Assembly: GCF_036373705.1 (NCBI RefSeq)
Contig: NC_089863.1
Span: 4,485,444-4,549,443 of the forward strand
Origin: Amia ocellicauda
Taxonomy: Eukaryota; Chordata; Actinopteri; Amiiformes; Amiidae
DNA: 64,000 bases
Direction: 5' to 3'
Position numbers and translations under genes: made by a program
Part shown: in pieces, positions 29,582 to 56,304 of the stretch
Layout of the letters: each line of letters starts with the position of its first letter
Position numbering within the stretch: the stretch's first letter is position 1
The notes under the pieces: model-generated
Told to the model about the DNA's origin: nothing
Databases searched by the model: none
Seen by the model: only the letters and a program-made list of their open reading frames with translations

Positions 29582-30012
29582 ACAGCATCTACAACCAACT
29601 CTCACTGTTTTCTTCTCATATCTGGCGACCAGCAACACTACATCATAGTGTGCCTGACCAGGCATGGGAGGACCATCAAAGTCACCGCTACCACACTCCA
29701 ATCTCATTCCATGATGATTATCAAACCATTGCACCAGTGTGACTGAGGTGCAACATACATTCAATGTGTTCATGGCTCCATCTGCTCATTCAATTCAACC
29801 TGTACCCGACTGCTGCCTCTCACCTGAAACGTAGTCAACAGAAATGCGCACTTGTATCACACCTTGTCGACACTGTTAATGTGTCATTGACACCCAATAT
29901 CCTGACATGTTGCTTAATCCGTTTAATCTCAATTCTTTCATAATAAGACTCTGTTACAATAAGACACTTCCACAACACTACATTCATTTGAATAGACAAT
30001 CACTTTTGAATA

Positions 30013-30238
30013 CAGTGTGGAGTAGTGGTTTGGGCTCTGTACCCTGTAGCACAGCACGGTGTGTGCAATCTCTGGTACACTTACTACTCTTGAGCAAGGG
30101 ACTTTAGCTAGATTGCACCAGTTAATGCCCACCCATGCCAATGGGTTAAGTGTAAGGAAAACAAAATGTGGTAATATCTCGTTAACATCTGTAAGTCACC
30201 CTGGCTATGGTGTCTGCTAAGAAATCGAATTAAAAAAT
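30013..30238 (+). mobile_element. V-SINE-like element, unit 19
   Basis: A-form; gaatagacaatc flank. Confidence 0.78.
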
Positions 30239-30882
30239 ACGTTGATATGAATCTCCATTGATTTATTTCTGTGTTCAACATGTATAATTCATGTATTTAT
30301 TATTATCTTCTCTCTGCATTTATTTTTAATTCTGCCTTGGATTATCCTCCATACATGTCGCACAAATGAATGTACAATGCATTCTGGCCCTTCTCATCAC
30401 TACAACAAGCAAAGGCAAAATATGAAAGAGAACGTGAGTTGAAAAGGTGAGGTGGTGTTTTTCTCTTTATATCTCTATTTACAGAGTAGACGAAATGCAG
30501 AGGAGGAAATATAAATAGAAAAGAAGAAAAAATGTCAACGAAGAACTGTAAAGGCACAGAGGGAAATGTGAACATACAATTGGTATTACATACGGACATA
30601 CGTTTTTTCTTAGATCTATGTAAAAATGTAATATTTTATAGCATAGAGCGAAGTAATATGAACTGATACAGAATATTAGATGAAGTCTAAATACATCTGT
30701 TTGTTCAAAACAGAATACACTGTATTGTTCTTGTTGTGAATACATTGGGGTGGATATATTTACGAATGGTATGGTGGTTGTGATCAAGAAGTGAAAAATG
30801 ACGACCCCTCGTATGCTTGTGAGGATCTCAGCAGGGCTGTCCTGCGGGCTGAAGACGGGTCTGGTAGCAGATGAAGGAGCTC

Positions 30883-30955
30883 TGGAGAATGCGGGCATCG
30901 GTCCCGCCACCTCTCGCATGCTAAGCGAGCGCTCTACCATCTGAGCTAATTCCCC
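30883..30955 (-). tRNA. tRNA-Ala-AGC: tRNA-Ala(AGC), unit 20
   Basis: Same sequence as the unit 1 gene. Confidence 0.95.
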
Positions 30956-31097
30956 GCTGCTTCCTGTGGCAGCACCGCCCTGTGCAGCGCCGGCTGCAGG
31001 TTCGCTCTGAACTTTGCATCCCTTTGGGTTCACTGATACCCTGTTCCAGGACAGAAGAAGCTGTTTCCATCGGATTGATTGAGTGCGTCCAAACGTT

Positions 31098-31170
31098 GGG
31101 CCAGTGGCGCAATGGATAACGCGTCTGACTACGAATCAGAAGACTGTAGGTTCGACTCCTACCTGGCTCG
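31098..31170 (+). tRNA. tRNA-Arg-ACG: tRNA-Arg(ACG), unit 20
   Basis: Mature gene as in unit 1. The base immediately upstream is T instead of G, and the 5' flank also has gattgattg for gattgcttg. Confidence 0.97.
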
Positions 31171-31601
31171 ACAGCATCTACAACCAACTCTCACTGTTTT
31201 CTTCTCATATCTGGCGACCAGCAGCACTACATCATAGTGTGCCGGACCAGGCATGGGAGGACCATCAAAGTCACCGCTACCACACTCCAATCTCATTCCA
31301 TGATGATTATCAAACCATTGCACCAGTGTGACTGAGGTGCAACATACATTCAATGTCTTCATGGCTCCATCTGCTCATTCAATTCAACCTGTACCCGACT
31401 GCTGCCTCTCACCTGAACCGTAGTCAACAGAAATGCGCACTTGTATCACACCTTGTCGACACTGTTAATGTGTCATTGACACCCAATAACCTGACATGTT
31501 GCTTAATCCGTTTAATCTCAATTCTTTCATAATAAGACTCTGTTACAATAAGACACTTCCACAACACTACATTCATTTGAACAGATAATCACTTTTGAAT
31601 A

Positions 31602-31827
31602 CAGTGTGGAGTAGTGGTTTGGGCTCTGTACCCTGTAGCACAGCACGGTGTGTGCAATCTCTGGTACACTTACTACTCTTGAGCAAGGGACTTTAGCTAG
31701 ATTGCACCAGTTAATGCCCACCCATGCCAATGGGTTAAGTGTAAGGAAAACAAAATGTGGTAATATCTCGTTAACATCTGTAAGTCACCCTGGCTATGGT
31801 GTCTGCTAAGAAATCGAATTAAAAAAT
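31602..31827 (+). mobile_element. V-SINE-like element, unit 20
   Basis: A-form; gaacagataatc flank. Confidence 0.78.
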
Positions 31828-32471
31828 ACGTTGATATGAATCTCCATTGATTTATTTCTGTGTTCAACATGTATAATTCATGTATTTATTATTATCTTCT
31901 CTCTGCATTTATTTTTTATTCTGCCTTGGATTATCCTCCATACATGTCGCACAAATGAATGTACAATGCATTCTGGCCCTTCTCATCACTACAACAAGCA
32001 AAGCCAAAATATTAAAGAGAACGTGAGTTGAAAAGGTGAGGTGGTGTTTTTCTCTTTATATCTCTATTTACAGAGTAGACGAAATGCAGAGGAGGAAATA
32101 TAAATAGAAAAGAAGAAAAAATGTCAACGAAGAACTGTAAATGCACAGAGGGAAATGTGAACATAAAATTGGTATTACATACGGACATACGATTTTTCTT
32201 AGATCTATGTAAAAATGTAATATTTTATAGCATAGAGCGAAGTAATATGAACTGAAACAGACTATTTGAAGAAGTCTAAATACATCTGCTTGTTCAAAAC
32301 AGAATACACTGTTTGGTTCTTGTTGTGAATACATTGGGGTGGATATATTTACGAATGGTATGGTGGTTGTGATCAAGAAGTGAAAAATGATGACCCCTCG
32401 TATGCTTGTGAGGATCTCAGCAGGGCTGTCCTGCGGGCTGACGACGGGTCTGGTAGCAGATGAAGGAGCTC

Positions 32472-32544
32472 TGGAGAATGCGGGCATCGGTTCCGCCACC
32501 TCTCGCATGCTAAGCGAGCGCTCTACCATCTGAGCTAATTCCCC
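32472..32544 (-). tRNA. tRNA-Ala-AGC: tRNA-Ala(AGC), unit 21, T-stem pair 53:61 broken
   Basis: G53 is changed to A, so the near-invariant G53-C61 pair that closes the T loop becomes A-C. With C55 next to it, the B box has three departures from consensus. Reduced or no function is likely. Confidence 0.8.
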
Positions 32545-32686
32545 GCTGCTTCCTGTGGCAGCACCGCCCTGTGCAGCGCCGGCTGCAGGTTCGCTCTGAA
32601 CTTTGCATCCCTTTGGGTTCACTGATACCCTGTTCCAGGACAGAAGAAGCTGTTTCCATCGGATTGCTTGAGTGCGTCCAAACGTG

Positions 32687-32761
32687 GGGCCAGTGGCGCA
32701 ATGGATAACGCGTCTGACTACGAATCAGAAGACTGTAGAGGTTCGACTCCTACCTGGCTCG
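32687..32761 (+). pseudogene. tRNA-Arg(ACG)-like, unit 21, 2-bp insertion in T stem
   Basis: The gene is 75 nt long. An extra AG/GA follows the variable loop (ctgtagg becomes ctgtagagg), so the T stem's 5' strand aligns as AGAGG against CCTAC, with two of five pairs lost. The acceptor stem, the anticodon arm (ACG) and the B box are intact, so it may be transcribed but is unlikely to fold or be processed normally. Confidence 0.8.
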
Positions 32762-33192
32762 ACAGCATCTACAACCAACTCTCACTGTTTTCTTCTCATA
32801 TCTGGCGACCAGCAGCACTACATCATAGTGTGCCTGACCAGGCATGGGAGGACCATCAAAGTCACCGCTACCACACTCCAATCTCATTCCATGATGATTA
32901 TGAAACCAATGCACCAGTGTGACTGAGGTGCAACATACATTCAATGTCTTCATGGCTCCATCTGCTCATTCAATTCAACCTGTACCCGACTGCTGCCTCT
33001 CACCTGAAACGTAGTCAACAGAAATGCGCACTTGTATCACACCTTGTCGACACTGTTAATGTGTCATTGACACCCAATAACCTGACATGTTGCTTAATCC
33101 GTTTAATCTCAATTCTTTCATAATAAGACTCTGTTACAATAAGACACTTCCACAACACTACATTCATTTGAATAGACAATCACTTTTGAATA

Positions 33193-33418
33193 CAGTGTGG
33201 AGTAGTGGTTTGGGCTCTGTACCCTGTAGCACAGCACGGTGTGTGCAATCTCTGGTACACTTACTACTCTTGAGCAAGGGACTTTAGCTAGATTGCACCA
33301 GTTCATGCCCACCCATGCCAATGGGTTAAGTGTAAGGAAAACAAAATGTGGTAATATCTCGTTAACATCTGTAAGTCACCCTGGCTATGGTGTCTGCTAA
33401 GAACTCGAATTAAAAAAT
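33193..33418 (+). mobile_element. V-SINE-like element, unit 21
   Basis: A-form with C112 and C212, i.e. the unit 15/18 type, unlike its sister unit 24. Confidence 0.78.
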
Positions 33419-34062
33419 ACGTTGATATGAATCTCCATTGATTTATTTCTGTGTTCAACATGTATAATTCATGTATTTATTATTATCTTCTCTCTGCATT
33501 TATTTTTAATTCTGCCTTGGATTATCCTCCATACATGTCGCACAAATGAATGTACAATGCATTCTGGCCCTTCTCATCACTACAACAAGCAAAGGCAAAA
33601 TATGAAAGAGAACGTGAGTTGAAAAGGTGAGGTGGTGTTTTTCTCTTTATATCTCTATTTACAGAGTAGACGAAATGCAGAGGAGGAAATATAAATAGAA
33701 AAGAAGAAAAAATGTCAACGAAGAACTGTAAAGGCACAGAGGGAAATGTGAACATAAAATTGGTATTACATACGGACATACGTTTTTTCTTAGATCTATG
33801 TAAAAATGTAATATTTTATAGCATAGAGCGTAGTAATATGAACTGATACAGAATATTAGATGAAGTCTAAATACATCTGTTTGTTCAGAACAGAATACAC
33901 TGTATTGTTCTTGTTGTGAATACATTGGGGTGGATATATTTACGAATGGTATGGTGGTTGTGATCAAGAAGTGAGAAATGACGACCCCTCGTATGCTTGT
34001 GAGGATCTCAGCAGGGCTGTCCTGCGGGCTGAAGACGGGTCTGGTAGCAGATGAAGGAGCTC

Positions 34063-34135
34063 TGGAGAATGCGGGCATCGGTCCCGCCACCTCTCGCATG
34101 CTAAGCGAGCGCTCTACCATCTGAGCTAATTCCCC
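34063..34135 (-). tRNA. tRNA-Ala-AGC: tRNA-Ala(AGC), unit 22
   Basis: Gene as in unit 1; downstream T-runs interrupted as in units 16 and 19. Confidence 0.94.
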
Positions 34136-34277
34136 GCTGCTTCCTGTGGCAGCACCGCCCTGTGCAGCGCCGGCTGCAGGTTCGCTCTGAACTTTGCATC
34201 CCTTTGGGTTCACTGATACCCTGTTCCAGGACAGAAGAAGCTGTTTCCATCGGATTGCTTGAGTGCGTCCAAACGTG

Positions 34278-34350
34278 GGGCCAGTGGCGCAATGGATAAC
34301 GCGTCTGACTACGAATCAGAAGACTGTAGGTTCGACTCCTACCTGGCTCG
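34278..34350 (+). tRNA. tRNA-Arg-ACG: tRNA-Arg(ACG), unit 22
   Basis: Same gene sequence as unit 1. Confidence 0.97.
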
Positions 34351-34781
34351 ACAGCATCTACAACCAACTCTCACTGTTTTCTTCTCATATCTGGCGACCA
34401 GCAACACTACATCATAGTGTGCCTGACCAGGCATGGGAGGACCATCAAAGTCACCGCTACCACACTCCAATCTCATTCCATGATGATTATCAAACCATTG
34501 CACCAGTGTGACTGAGGTGCAACATACATTCAATGTGTTCATGGCTCCATCTGCTCATTCAATTCAACCTGTACCCGACTGCTGCCTCTCACCTGAAACG
34601 TAGTCAACAGAAATGCGCACTTGTATCACACCTTGTCGACACTGTTAATGTGTCATTGACACCCAATATCCTGACATGTTGCTTAATCCGTTTAATCTCA
34701 ATTCTTTCATAATAAGACTCTGTTACAATAAGACACTTCCACAACACTACATTCATTTGAATAGACAATCACTTTTGAATA

Positions 34782-35007
34782 CAGTGTGGAGTAGTGGTTT
34801 GGGCTCTGTACCCTGTAGCACAGCACGGTGTGTGCAATCTCTGGTACACTTACTACTCTTGAGCAAGGGACTTTAGCTAGATTGCACCAGTTAATGCCCA
34901 CCCATGCCAATGGGTTAAGTGTAAGGAAAACAAAATGTGGTAATATCTCGTTAACATCTGTAAGTCACCCTGGCTATGGTGTCTGCTAAGAAATCGAATT
35001 AAAAAAT
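34782..35007 (+). mobile_element. V-SINE-like element, unit 22
   Basis: A-form; gaatagacaatc flank. Confidence 0.78.
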
Positions 35008-35651
35008 ACGTTGATATGAATCTCCATTGATTTATTTCTGTGTTCAACATGTATAATTCATGTATTTATTATTATCTTCTCTCTGCATTTATTTTTAATT
35101 CTGCCTTGGATTATCCTCCATACATGTCGCACAAATGAATGTACAATGCATTCTGGCCCTTCTCATCACTACAACAAGCAAAGGCAAAATATGAAAGAGA
35201 ACGTGAGTTGAAAAGGTGAGGTGGTGTTTTTCTCTTTATATCTCTATTTACAGAGTAGACGAAATGCAGAGGAGGAAATATAAATAGAAAAGAAGAAAAA
35301 ATGTCAACGAAGAACTGTAAAGGCACAGAGGGAAATGTGAACATACAATTGGTATTACATACGGACATACGTTTTTTCTTAGATCTATGTAAAAATGTAA
35401 TATTTTATAGCATAGAGCGAAGTAATATGAACTGATACAGAATATTAGATGAAGTCTAAATACATCTGTTTGTTCAAAACAGAATACACTGTATTGTTCT
35501 TGTTGTGAATACATTGGGGTGGATATATTTACGAATGGTATGGTGGTTGTGATCAAGAAGTGAAAAATGACGACCCCTCGTATGCTTGTGAGGATCTCAG
35601 CAGGGCTGTCCTGCGGGCTGAAGACGGGTCTGGTAGCAGATGAAGGAGCTC

Positions 35652-35724
35652 TGGAGAATGCGGGCATCGGTCCCGCCACCTCTCGCATGCTAAGCGAGCG
35701 CTCTACCATCTGAGCTAATTCCCC
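35652..35724 (-). tRNA. tRNA-Ala-AGC: tRNA-Ala(AGC), unit 23
   Basis: Same sequence as the unit 1 gene. Confidence 0.95.
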
Positions 35725-35866
35725 GCTGCTTCCTGTGGCAGCACCGCCCTGTGCAGCGCCGGCTGCAGGTTCGCTCTGAACTTTGCATCCCTTTGGGTTC
35801 ACTGATACCCTGTTCCAGGACAGAAGAAGCTGTTTCCATCGGATTGATTGAGTGCGTCCAAACGTT

Positions 35867-35939
35867 GGGCCAGTGGCGCAATGGATAACGCGTCTGACTA
35901 CGAATCAGAAGACTGTAGGTTCGACTCCTACCTGGCTCG
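35867..35939 (+). tRNA. tRNA-Arg-ACG: tRNA-Arg(ACG), unit 23
   Basis: Mature gene as in unit 1; upstream base T as in unit 20. Confidence 0.97.
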
Positions 35940-36370
35940 ACAGCATCTACAACCAACTCTCACTGTTTTCTTCTCATATCTGGCGACCAGCAGCACTACA
36001 TCATAGTGTGCCGGACCAGGCATGGGAGGACCATCAAAGTCACCGCTACCACACTCCAATCTCATTCCATGATGATTATCAAACCATTGCACCAGTGTGA
36101 CTGAGGTGCAACATACATTCAATGTCTTCATGGCTCCATCTGCTCATTCAATTCAACCTGTACCCGACTGCTGCCTCTCACCTGAACCGTAGTCAACAGA
36201 AATGCGCACTTGTATCACACCTTGTCGACACTGTTAATGTGTCATTGACACCCAATAACCTGACATGTTGCTTAATCCGTTTAATCTCAATTCTTTCATA
36301 ATAAGACTCTGTTACAATAAGACACTTCCACAACACTACATTCATTTGAACAGATAATCACTTTTGAATA

Positions 36371-36596
36371 CAGTGTGGAGTAGTGGTTTGGGCTCTGTAC
36401 CCTGTAGCACAGCACGGTGTGTGCAATCTCTGGTACACTTACTACTCTTGAGCAAGGGACTTTAGCTAGATTGCACCAGTTAATGCCCACCCATGCCAAT
36501 GGGTTAAGTGTAAGGAAAACAAAATGTGGTAATATCTCGTTAACATCTGTAAGTCACCCTGGCTATGGTGTCTGCTAAGAAATCGAATTAAAAAAT
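36371..36596 (+). mobile_element. V-SINE-like element, unit 23
   Basis: A-form; gaacagataatc flank. Confidence 0.78.
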
Positions 36597-37240
36597 ACGT
36601 TGATATGAATCTCCATTGATTTATTTCTGTGTTCAACATGTATAATTCATGTATTTATTATTATCTTCTCTCTGCATTTATTTTTTATTCTGCCTTGGAT
36701 TATCCTCCATACATGTCGCACAAATGAATGTACAATGCATTCTGGCCCTTCTCATCACTACAACAAGCAAAGCCAAAATATTAAAGAGAACGTGAGTTGA
36801 AAAGGTGAGGTGGTGTTTTTCTCTTTATATCTCTATTTACAGAGTAGACGAAATGCAGAGGAGGAAATATAAATAGAAAAGAAGAAAAAATGTCAACGAA
36901 GAACTGTAAATGCACAGAGGGAAATGTGAACATAAAATTGGTATTACATACGGACATACGATTTTTCTTAGATCTATGTAAAAATGTAATATTTTATAGC
37001 ATAGAGCGAAGTAATATGAACTGAAACAGACTATTTGAAGAAGTCTAAATACATCTGCTTGTTCAAAACAGAATACACTGTTTGGTTCTTGTTGTGAATA
37101 CATTGGGGTGGATATATTTACGAATGGTATGGTGGTTGTGATCAAGAAGTGAAAAATGATGACCCCTCGTATGCTTGTGAGGATCTCAGCAGGGCTGTCC
37201 TGCGGGCTGACGACGGGTCTGGTAGCAGATGAAGGAGCTC

Positions 37241-37313
37241 TGGAGAATGCGGGCATCGGTTCCGCCACCTCTCGCATGCTAAGCGAGCGCTCTACCATCT
37301 GAGCTAATTCCCC
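37241..37313 (-). tRNA. tRNA-Ala-AGC: tRNA-Ala(AGC), unit 24, T-stem pair 53:61 broken
   Basis: Same A53 change as unit 21. Confidence 0.8.
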
Positions 37314-37455
37314 GCTGCTTCCTGTGGCAGCACCGCCCTGTGCAGCGCCGGCTGCAGGTTCGCTCTGAACTTTGCATCCCTTTGGGTTCACTGATACCCT
37401 GTTCCAGGACAGAAGAAGCTGTTTCCATCGGATTGCTTGAGTGCGTCCAAACGTG

Positions 37456-37530
37456 GGGCCAGTGGCGCAATGGATAACGCGTCTGACTACGAATCAGAAG
37501 ACTGTAGAGGTTCGACTCCTACCTGGCTCG
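37456..37530 (+). pseudogene. tRNA-Arg(ACG)-like, unit 24, 2-bp insertion in T stem
   Basis: Same 2-bp insertion as unit 21, inherited through the block duplication. Confidence 0.8.
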
Positions 37531-37961
37531 ACAGCATCTACAACCAACTCTCACTGTTTTCTTCTCATATCTGGCGACCAGCAGCACTACATCATAGTGT
37601 GCCTGACCAGGCATGGGAGGACCATCAAAGTCACCGCTACCACACTCCAATCTCATTCCATGATGATTATGAAACCAATGCACCAGTGTGACTGAGGTGC
37701 AACATACATTCAATGTCTTCATGGCTCCATCTGCTCATTCAATTCAACCTGTACCCGACTGCTGCCTCTCACCTGAAACGTAGTCAACAGAAATGCGCAC
37801 TTGTATCACACCTTGTCGACACTGTTAATGTGTCATTGACACCCAATAACCTGACATGTTGCTTAATCCGTTTAATCTCAATTCTTTCATAATAAGACTC
37901 TGTTACAATAAGACACTTCCACAACACTACATTCATTTGAACAGATAATCACTTTTGAATA

Positions 37962-38187
37962 CAGTGTGGAGTAGTGGTTTGGGCTCTGTACCCTGTAGCA
38001 CAGCACGGTGTGTGCAATCTCTGGTACACTTACTACTCTTGAGCAAGGGACTTTAGCTAGATTGCACCAGTTAATGCCCACCCATGCCAATGGGTTAAGT
38101 GTAAGGAAAACAAAATGTGGTAATATCTCGTTAACATCTGTAAGTCACCCTGGCTATGGTGTCTGCTAAGAAATCGAATTAAAAAAT
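37962..38187 (+). mobile_element. V-SINE-like element, unit 24
   Basis: A-form; gaacagataatc flank; lacks C112 and C212. Confidence 0.78.
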
Positions 38188-38831
38188 ACGTTGATATGAA
38201 TCTCCATTGATTTATTTCTGTGTTCAACATGTATAATTCATGTATTTATTATTATCTTCTCTCTGCATTTATTTTTAATTCTGCCTTGGATTATCCTCCA
38301 TACATGTCGCACAAATCAATGTACAATGCATTCTGGCCCTTCTCATCACTACAACAAGCAAAGGCAAAATATGAAAGAGAACGTGAGTTGAAAAGGTGAG
38401 GTGGTGTTTTTCTCTTTATATCTCTATTTACAGAGTAGACGAAATGCAGAGGAGGAAATATAAATAGAAAAGAAGAAAAAATGTCAACGAAGAACTGTAA
38501 ATGCACAGAGGGAAATGTGAACATAAAATTGGTATTACATACGGACATACGTTTTTTCTTAGATCTATGTAAAAATGTAATATTTTATAGCATAGAGCGA
38601 AGTAATATGAACTGATACAGAATATTAGATGAAGTCTAAATACATCTGTTTGTTCAAAACAGAATACACTGTATTGTTCTTGTTGTGAATACATTGGGGT
38701 GGATATATTTACGAATGGTATGGTGGTTGTGATCAAGAAGTGAAAAATGATGACCCCTCGTATGCTTGTGAGGATCTCAGCAGGGCTGTCCTGCGGGCTG
38801 ACGACGGGTCTGGTAGCAGATGAAGGAGCTC

Positions 38832-38904
38832 TGGAGAATGCGGGCATCGGTCCCGTCACCTCTCGCATGCTAAGCGAGCGCTCTACCATCTGAGCTAATT
38901 CCCC
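38832..38904 (-). tRNA. tRNA-Ala-AGC: tRNA-Ala(AGC), unit 25, T-stem mismatch 49:65
   Basis: G49 is changed to A, making A-C at the base of the T stem. The remaining four pairs hold. The promoter interval also has ctgcaagttcg for ctgcaggttcg. Confidence 0.87.
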
Positions 38905-39046
38905 GCTGCTTCCTGTGGCAGCACCGCCCTGTGCAGCGCCGGCTGCAAGTTCGCTCTGAACTTTGCATCCCTTTGGGTTCACTGATACCCTGTTCCAGGA
39001 CAGAAGAAGCTGTTTCCATCGGATTGCTTGAGTGCGTCCAACCGTG

Positions 39047-39119
39047 GGGCCAGTGGCGCAATGGATAACGCGTCTGACTACGAATCAGAAGACTGTAGGT
39101 TCGACTCCTACCTGGCTCG
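39047..39119 (+). tRNA. tRNA-Arg-ACG: tRNA-Arg(ACG), unit 25
   Basis: Same gene sequence as unit 1; aaccg 5' flank (X type). Confidence 0.97.
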
Positions 39120-39550
39120 ACAGCATCTACAACCAACTCTCACTGTTTTCTTCTCATATCTGGCGACCAGCAGCACTACATCATAGTGTGCCTGACCAGG
39201 CATGGGAGGACCATCAAAGTCACCGCTACCACACTCCAATCTCATTCCATGATGATTATCAAACCATTGCACCAGTGTGACTGAGGTGCAACATACATTC
39301 AATGTGTTCATGGCTCCATCTGCTCATTCAATTCAACCTGTACCCGACTGCTGCCTCTCACCTGAAACGTAGTCAACAGAAATGCGCACTTGTATCACAC
39401 CTTGTCGACACTGTTAATGTGTCATTGACACCCAATATCCTGACATGTTGCTTAATCCGTTTAATCTCAATTCTTTCATAATAAGACTCTGTTACAATAA
39501 GACACTTCCACAACACTACATTCATTTGAATAGACAATCACTTTTGAATA

Positions 39551-53205: not shown

Positions 53206-53347
53206 GCTGCTTCCTGTGGCAGCACCGCCCTGTGCAGCGCCGGCTGCAGGTTCGCTCTGAACTTTGCATCAATATGGGTGCACTGATACCCTGTTCCAGG
53301 ACAGAAGAAGCTGTTTCCATCGGATTGCTTGAGTGCGTCCAAACGTG

Positions 53348-53420: not shown

Positions 53421-53851
53421 ACAGCATCTACACCCAACTCTCACTGTTTTCTTCTCATATCTGGCGACCAGCAGCACTACATCATAGTGTGCCGGACCAG
53501 GCATGGGAGGACCATCAAAGTCACCGCTACCACACTCCAATCTCATTCCATGATGATTATCAAACCATTGCACCAGTGTGACTGAGGTGCAACATACATT
53601 CAATGTGTTCATGGCTCCATCTGCTCATTCAATTCAACCTGTACCCGACTGCTGCCTCTCACCTGAACCGTAGTCAACAGAAATGCGCACTTGTATCACA
53701 CCTTGTCGACACTGTTAATGTGTCATTGACACCCAATAACCTGACATGTTGCTTAATCCGTTTAATCTCAATTCTTTCATAATAAGACTCTGTTACAATA
53801 AGACACTTCCACAACACTACATTCATTTGAATAGACAATCACTTTTGAATA

Positions 53852-54077
53852 CAGTGTGGAGTAGTGGTTTGGGCTCTGTACCCTGTAGCACAGCACGGTG
53901 TGTGCAATCTCTGGTACACTTACTACTCTTGAGCAAGGGACTTTAGCTAGATTGCACCAGTTAATGCCCACCCATGCCAATGGGTTAAGTGTAAGGAAAA
54001 CAAAATGTGGTAATATCTCGTTAACATCTGTAAGTCACCCTGGCTATGGTGTCTGCTAAGAAATCGAATTAAAAAAT
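53852..54077 (+). mobile_element. V-SINE-like element, unit 34
   Basis: A-form; gaatagacaatc flank. Confidence 0.78.
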
Positions 54078-54729
54078 ACGTTGATATGAATCTCCATTGA
54101 TTTATTTCTGTGTTCAACATGTATAATTCATGTATTTATTATTATCTTCTCTCTGCATTTATTTTTAATTCTGCCTTGGATTATCCTCCATACATGATAG
54201 CCTGTCGCACAAATGAATGTACAATGCATTCTGGCCCTTTTTATCACTACAACAAGTAAAGCCAAAATATGAAAGAGAACGTGAGTTGAAAAGGTGAGGT
54301 GGTGTTTTTCTCTTTATATCTCTATTTACAGAGTAGACGAAATGCAGAGGAGGAAATATAAATAGAAAAGAAGAAAGAATGTCAACGAAGAACTGTAAAT
54401 GCACAGAGGGAAATGTGAACATAAAATTGGTATTACATACGGACATACGTTTTTTCTTAGATCTATGTAAAAATGTAATATTTTATAGCATAGAGCGAAG
54501 TAATATGAACTGATACAGAATATTTGATGAAGTCTAAATACATCTGTTTGTTCAAAACAGAATACACTGTATTGTTCTTGTTGTGAATACATTGGGGTGG
54601 ATATATTTACGAATGGTATGGTGGTTGTGATCAAGAAGTGAAAAACGACGACCCCTCGTATGCTTGTGAGGATCTCAGCAGGGCTGTCCTGCAGGCTGAA
54701 GACGGGTCTGGTAACAGATGAAGGAGCTC

Positions 54730-54802
54730 TGGAGAATGCGGGCATCGGTCCCGCCACCTATCGCATGCTAAGCGAGCGCTCTACCATCTGAGCTAATACC
54801 CT
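54730..54802 (-). pseudogene. Broken tRNA-Ala(AGC), unit 35
   Basis: The 87-bp deletion replaced the 5' end. The acceptor strand now reads AGGGTAT instead of GGGGAAT, giving A1-C72 and U5-U68 mismatches, and the native 5' flank is gone. A further change makes 27:43 C-U in the anticodon stem. The anticodon AGC and the T arm (with C55) remain. It is very unlikely to make a working alanine tRNA. Confidence 0.9.
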
Positions 54803-54857
54803 GTTCCAGGACAGAAGAAGCTGTTTCCATCGGATTGCTTGAGTGCGTCCAAACGTG

Positions 54858-54930
54858 GGGCCAGTGGCGCAATGGATAACGCGTCTGACTTCGAATCAGA
54901 AGACTGTAGGTTCGACTCCTACCTGGCTCG
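54858..54930 (+). tRNA. tRNA-Arg-TCG: tRNA-Arg with anticodon TCG, unit 35 (anticodon switch)
   Basis: Identical to the unit 1 gene except for one A-to-T change at 54891, which is position 34, so the anticodon is TCG rather than ACG. All stems, the A and B boxes, A20 and G73 are kept. It should still be charged with arginine, since C35 and A20 are intact, but it would read CGA and CGG with an unmodified-type U34 instead of CGU/CGC/CGA through inosine. Only 55 bp now separates it from the broken tRNA-Ala, yet its own first 60 bp of 5' flank is present. Confidence 0.93.
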
Positions 54931-55361
54931 ACAGCATCTACACCCAACTCTCGCTGTTTTCTTCTCATATCTGGCGACCAGCAGCACTACATCATAGTGT
55001 GCCGGACCAGGCATGGGAGGACCATCAAAGTCACCGCTACCACACTCCAATCTCATTCCATGATGATTATCAAACCATTGCACCAGTGTGACTGAGGTGC
55101 AACATACATTCAATGTGTTCATGGCTCCATCTGCTCATTCAATTCAACCTGTACCCGACTGCTGCCTCTCACCTGAACCGTAGTCAACAGAAATGCGCAC
55201 TTGTATCACACCTTGTCGACACTGTTAATGTGTCATTGACACCCAATATCCTGACATGTTGCTTAATCCGTTTAATCTCAATTCTTTCATAATAAGACTC
55301 TGTTACAATAAGACACTTCCACAACACTACATTCATTTGAATAGACAATCACTTTTGAATA

Positions 55362-56231: not shown

Positions 56232-56304
56232 TGGAGAATGCGGGCATCGGTCCCGCCACCTCTCGCATGCTAAGCGAGCGCTCTACCATCTGAGCTAATT
56301 CCCC
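56232..56304 (-). tRNA. tRNA-Ala-AGC: tRNA-Ala(AGC), unit 36
   Basis: Gene as in unit 1; the spacer downstream has several private changes (tcctacatac, caagtgaatg, gtctgatagc). Confidence 0.95.

Follow-up and report, generated by a model that had tools for sequence, protein, structure and literature searches.

Introduction

Changes of anticodon between isoacceptors, and tandem arrays of tRNA genes, have each been described before, and the closest of the described systems share one or more features with the locus studied here. The isoacceptor shifts collected by Rogers and Griffiths-Jones (2014, PMC3923123) are, in the part of that paper drawn on here, one-base changes of the anticodon in an unchanged tRNA body. 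There, 39 of 44 isoacceptor shifts fall at the first anticodon base, as does the change that we describe (A34T), and the shifts are tied to gene redundancy. Those shifts came from comparisons of synteny across species, in five groups without fish, whereas the present one is found among its sister genes, mixed with them and in many copies. In yeast, likewise, a point mutation in a multi-copy arginine tRNA gene changed UCU to CCU and produced a working chimeric tRNA (Yona et al., 2013, PMC3868979); as far as the part of that report used here goes, the switch there arose under selection once a gene had been deleted, and its function was tested, whereas the TCG genes of our array are described here from sequence.

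The genomic setting has its precedents as well. Tandem clusters with two tRNA families per cluster, as in the Ala/Arg array considered below, were described by Bermudez-Santana et al. (2010, PMC2888827). One figure legend of that paper gives a cluster with Arg(TCT) copies and Thr (AGT or TGT), so that mixed isoacceptors within a cluster are already on record; a history of switching is absent from its cluster account in the part cited. The human 1q23.3 repeat (Darrow and Chadwick, 2014, PMC4041453) is also a vertebrate tandem array with several tRNAs per unit, genes on both strands and copy-number variation; it differs in its 7.3-kb unit and in its tRNAs, and the portion of the paper used here makes no mention of the anticodon. 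The arrays of Entamoeba (PMC2652664, in part) also carry tRNA genes as tandem units, but in a protist and with another unit design. The TCG family described below fits the known class of isoacceptor shifts, in the known setting of tandem tRNA arrays. A literature search returned no description of this particular array, which is weak evidence that none exists.

Results

The DNA analysed, which we call the window, is a stretch of 64,000 nucleotides (C20:4485444-4549443) from a 988-Mb assembly of 385 contigs, and it was this assembly that we searched. The window lies within a tandem tRNA array, of which it holds 40 near-identical units of ~1589 bases, head to tail; each unit carries one tRNA-Ala (AGC) on the minus strand and one tRNA-Arg on the plus strand. 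For the window, ARAGORN lists 40 tRNA-Arg and 37 tRNA-Ala genes, and Rfam lists 40 of each. Tandem Repeats Finder, whose longest period is 500, returned 0 rows. The tRNA bodies look vertebrate-like and, together with a SINE-like tail, may point to a fish. For the array-wide analysis we took C20:4335001-4599443, which holds 155 Arg genes spaced ~1589 bases apart. Unit statistics cover 39 of the 40 window units and 154 of the 155 on C20, the first unit being set aside in both. For TCG-unit identities, variable columns and block matching on C20, 443 bases of one gap were read as N; the same bases were filled for the frequency spectrum, the random-window test and the counts of flanks, deletions and insertions.

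Several features of the array are recorded here for their own sake. There is higher-order structure in window units 20-22 and 23-25 (29671-39208), where units 20 and 21 recur base for base as 23 and 24, and the pairs 9 and 11, 15 and 18, and 16 and 19 are identical in their substitutions. The Arg genes at 32687-32761 and 37456-37530 of the window have a T arm lengthened by two bases (GTAGAGG) and still score 53.2 bits in Rfam; C20 has five such genes. Unit 34 carries four clustered substitutions between its Ala and Arg genes (53271-53280) that are private to it within the window. A second tRNA array, outside the window, begins at about C20:4592238, directly next to the last Ala/Arg unit; its genes are Leu(TAA) and Leu(TAG), on opposite strands.

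Unit 35 of the window (53510..55019) has 1510 bases against the usual 1589. Its tRNA-Arg gene (54858..54930, plus strand; found by ARAGORN and by Rfam RF00005) has the anticodon TCG at 54891..54893, the only one of the 40 window Arg genes to do so, the other 39 being ACG. The alignment of units 2-40 and that of the 40 Arg genes both place the difference in a single base, T for A at 54891 (position 34 of the tRNA), with the other 72 of the 73 bases equal to those of the commonest gene of the array. ACG and TCG are both arginine anticodons, here on one and the same body. The preliminary description had presented this as a switch from one arginine isoacceptor to another, in an otherwise intact gene of a redundant array, and the sequence comparison agrees on each count. 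The gene scores 66.5 bits in Rfam, where the usual ACG gene scores 63.7 and the cut-off is 29, and so does not look like a pseudogene. The internal promoter, recognised by its match to the box consensus, is identical to that of the neighbouring units (units 34-36 compared), with an A box TGGCGCAATGG at 54865..54875 and a B box GGTTCGACTCC at 54909..54919, both on the plus strand. A likely Pol III terminator, the TTTT at 54957..54960 (plus strand, 26 bases 3' of the gene), matches those of units 34 and 36.

The arginine identity bases had also been described as kept, and A20, C35, G36 and A38 are indeed all unchanged. In the part of a review used here, arginine identity in plants, mammals and E. 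coli depends mainly on A20 and C35, with G36, and A38 is added in plants; determinants vary between species. When the unmodified TCG transcript is folded as a single strand, a slipped anticodon arm (pairs 32-35/42-45) is favoured over the cloverleaf with a probability of 0.97-0.98. A human ACG and a human TCG sequence, both approximate, folded imperfectly too, so the prediction of a slipped arm weighs little.

Judged from the window alone, the change of anticodon is weak evidence and unremarkable. With 66 of 1589 columns variable over 39 units, the Arg anticodon would be expected to hold 0.12 variants (P ~0.12, or ~0.04 when position 34 is taken by itself), and 10 of the 25 singleton substitutions in the window lie in unit 35, 20 of the 25 in units 34-36. 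Searches with the exact tRNA-Arg pattern gave 0 matches in a genome-contig collection and 0 in a viral-contig collection.

The picture is different at the scale of the genome. The exact 73-base TCG gene is present in at least 38 copies, 23 on C20, 10 on C136 and 5 on C231, with none elsewhere among the matches reported for the whole assembly; the repeat counts from this exact search are lower bounds, some stretches being read as N, and the reversed pattern gave 0 matches in the same genome. A 201-base query that holds the gene, and begins just past the deletion junction described below, scored at 40 places out of 268 candidates, at least 31 of them at the full 363 bits. ARAGORN divides the 155 Arg genes of the C20 array into 131 ACG and 24 TCG, with every non-TCG gene being ACG. 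The TCG genes are identical over their 73 bases in 23 of 24 cases, the remaining one also carrying T54A, and they fall into two zones, with 11 among units 23-57 and 13 among units 123-146. The view of unit 35 as a snapshot of a single case thus gives way to a family that makes up 24 of the 155 Arg genes of C20, and these array-wide copies also reject a reading of unit 35 as an isolated divergent unit with a chance anticodon variant.

Both C136 and C231 are near-identical to parts of the C20 array, and their numbers of TCG units differ. Four pieces of C136, 34.8 of its 78.9 kb, match C20 at 99.97-100%. C231 (32 kb) equals the window for 4 kb on the upstream side of the unit 35 TCG gene and 1.4 kb on its downstream side; after this identical stretch it has an additional TCG unit in which the start of the Ala gene is complete, followed by 19.3 kb that match C20 at 99.94%, and it holds 5 TCG among 21 Arg genes. 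To us these two contigs look like an alternate haplotype of the array, with unequal numbers of TCG genes; if so, the 38 copies include alleles.

Unit 35 also differs from most units in its tRNA-Ala gene (AGC; 54730..54802, minus strand). A deletion of 87 bases that lies between the two tRNA genes, with its junction at 54795..54796 in the unit alignment and a 2-base AT microhomology there, joins the start of the Ala gene to sequence near the Arg promoter. The first bases of the gene are thereby replaced by the junction, and because the junction supplies the replacement bases, just two acceptor pairs are mismatched and G3.U70 is kept; G43T adds one mismatch in the anticodon stem. The gene is absent from the ARAGORN list for the window and has the lowest Rfam score of the 40 Ala matches (38.4 bits, against a gathering score of 29). 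The unit had been said to have lost its tRNA-Ala, which is true of the gene start, now deleted, and fits the three mismatched pairs, and is too strong for a gene whose acceptor stem is largely rebuilt and which still reaches 38.4 bits. No run of four T occurs within 84 bases 3' of the Ala gene (e.g. 56232-56304, minus strand) in units 34-36, a long way for a Pol III terminator.

Over the C20 array, the deletion is present in 13 of the 24 TCG units and in 0 of the 130 ACG units, and the full Ala start in the other 11 of 24. The anticodon switch had been noted as lying in the same unit as the loss of the Ala gene; as these 11 units show, the two were not a joint event in unit 35. A deletion confined to TCG units, 11 of which keep a full Ala start, argues that TCG most likely came first, the deletion having arisen in a unit that was already TCG. 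Together with the count of 131 ACG against 24 TCG genes on C20, this nesting of the deletion within TCG points to ACG as the ancestral state.

How did the anticodon change come to lie in two zones and on different backgrounds? An 8-base insertion, TGATAGCC (54195..54202 in unit 35), marks 17 of the 24 TCG units; among the 130 others, five have it, and all of these sit close to the array's right end. The deletion and the insertion occur in all four combinations (125, 16, 7 and 6 of the 154 units), and therefore units recombine. One type of 62-base 5' flank is common to 22 of 24 TCG units and is present also in 92 of 130 ACG units, and one type of 3' flank is common to 19 of 24 TCG units and is present also in 18 ACG units; that these flanks of TCG units also occur on ACG units fits a single point mutation on a common ACG haplotype. 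Identical TCG units recur at distant places (U033=U052; U034=U053=U143; U134=U137; U135=U138=U140), and the 8-unit blocks U033-U040 and U052-U059, each with 4 TCG units, show 9 differences in total. The units nearest to window unit 35 are units 27, 23 and 30 (7, 8 and 8 substitutions), all TCG with the deletion. The four combinations, the block copies and the extra unit of C231, on what would be the other haplotype, are what unequal exchange with change of copy number leaves behind.

The frequencies of variants over the 154 units allow the anticodon change to be compared with the rest of the array. The two tRNA genes together show 24 base variants, and the flanks show 176. At least 10 copies are reached by just one of the 24 tRNA-gene variants, A34T with its 24 copies, and by 53 of the 176 flank variants (Fisher p 0.006); the next tRNA-gene variant has 6 copies, and the top flank variants have 73, 72 and 71. 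The test gives p 0.0007 without A34T (0 of 23), p 0.009 without the right-edge units and p 0.055 when counted per site, all of these p values being too sharp since the test takes linked variants as independent. Random pairs of 73-base windows show equally few common variants in 1.5% of draws. Variable columns are not fewer in the tRNA genes, either in the window (7/146 versus 59/1443, p 0.66) or on C20 (22/146 versus 167/1443, p 0.23). Within TCG units the Arg gene is variable in 1 of 73 columns versus 81 of 1443 (p 0.18), which we set aside as evidence of selection because choosing units by a shared base lowers diversity nearby. We read the spectrum as one in which most tRNA-gene changes are kept rare and the anticodon change is tolerated.

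Discussion

The account that we favour, and hold to be fairly probable, is that an anticodon shift between isoacceptors was multiplied by unequal exchange within a tandem tRNA array. In one tRNA-Arg(ACG) gene of the Ala/Arg array, position 34 would have mutated once from A to T, giving a tRNA-Arg(TCG) gene; unequal exchange, along with the duplication of blocks, would then have carried TCG into about one in six of the array's Arg genes; and the 87-base deletion that damages the adjacent Ala gene would have arisen later, inside the TCG lineage. By the decoding rules, ICG reads CGU, CGC and CGA, and UCG reads CGA and, by wobble, CGG. A working tRNA-Arg(UCG) is most likely made and would read CGA (and CGG by wobble) in place of CGU, CGC and CGA. 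With more than 100 ACG copies left, its effect would be near-neutral, so that it would have spread by array turnover. The base itself, the copy number, the nested deletion, the recombination of variants and the copied blocks are seen in the sequence, whereas transcription, charging with arginine, decoding and near-neutrality are what we infer; the TCG family is probably functional and near-neutral.

The strongest competitor keeps the spread and gives up the function: a silent or dead TCG gene, untranscribed or unused, was carried along passively as blocks were duplicated. Much of what we observe would look the same in that case, since TCG-bearing blocks were copied as blocks and 53 of 176 flank variants reach at least 10 copies without any known function; the damage to Ala in 13 of 24 units of the TCG lineage and the predicted slipping of the anticodon arm also fit a gene of little use. 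What speaks against it is that neither the gene body nor the promoter boxes are damaged in 23 of the 24 TCG copies and that all other tRNA-gene variants stay at 6 copies or fewer, and we regard passive carriage as possible and distinctly less probable than amplification of a functional gene.

If instead an extra supply of Arg(UCG) was favoured, selection for a second isoacceptor drove the spread. A34T is the one tRNA-gene variant to have spread (24 of 154 units, the next in 6), which is what such selection would do, but with 24 copies it falls comfortably within what flank variants reach, so that drift suffices and no positive selection is needed; we think this improbable. Conversion between tRNA genes is a known process, and an unlinked, older tRNA-Arg-TCG gene might have donated the anticodon in place of a point mutation. 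That would be very surprising here, where the gene differs from its ACG sisters in 1 of 73 bases, the flanks are those of ACG units, and vertebrate Arg-TCG genes have a body that differs from that of the array gene. Least credible is that the T is a sequencing or assembly error of a single unit. A near-identical tandem array is hard to assemble, and this one does contain a run of N, but at least 38 exact copies lie on three contigs and on several linked backgrounds, and C231, the second assembled version of the unit 35 locus, carries the T as well.

What is less usual about the array, on the favoured account of a shift amplified by unequal exchange, is that the shift is caught in the middle of its spread. 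Anticodon shifts are mostly inferred between species, and here the intermediate state is visible within one array, with 131 genes of the old type and 24 of the new on C20, together with nested later changes and apparent differences in copy number between assembled versions. Two questions become testable as a result: whether the variant spreads like any flank variant, and whether its dosage affects the tRNA pool. A bolder reading, which we offer as rather doubtful, is that the array mass-produces a new and used tRNA-Arg(UCG) family, with A34T as the one tRNA-gene variant permitted by selection, its copy number varying between haplotypes and its genes supplying a real share of Arg-UCG. If that were true, the turnover of a tandem array would act as a dial for isoacceptor dosage.
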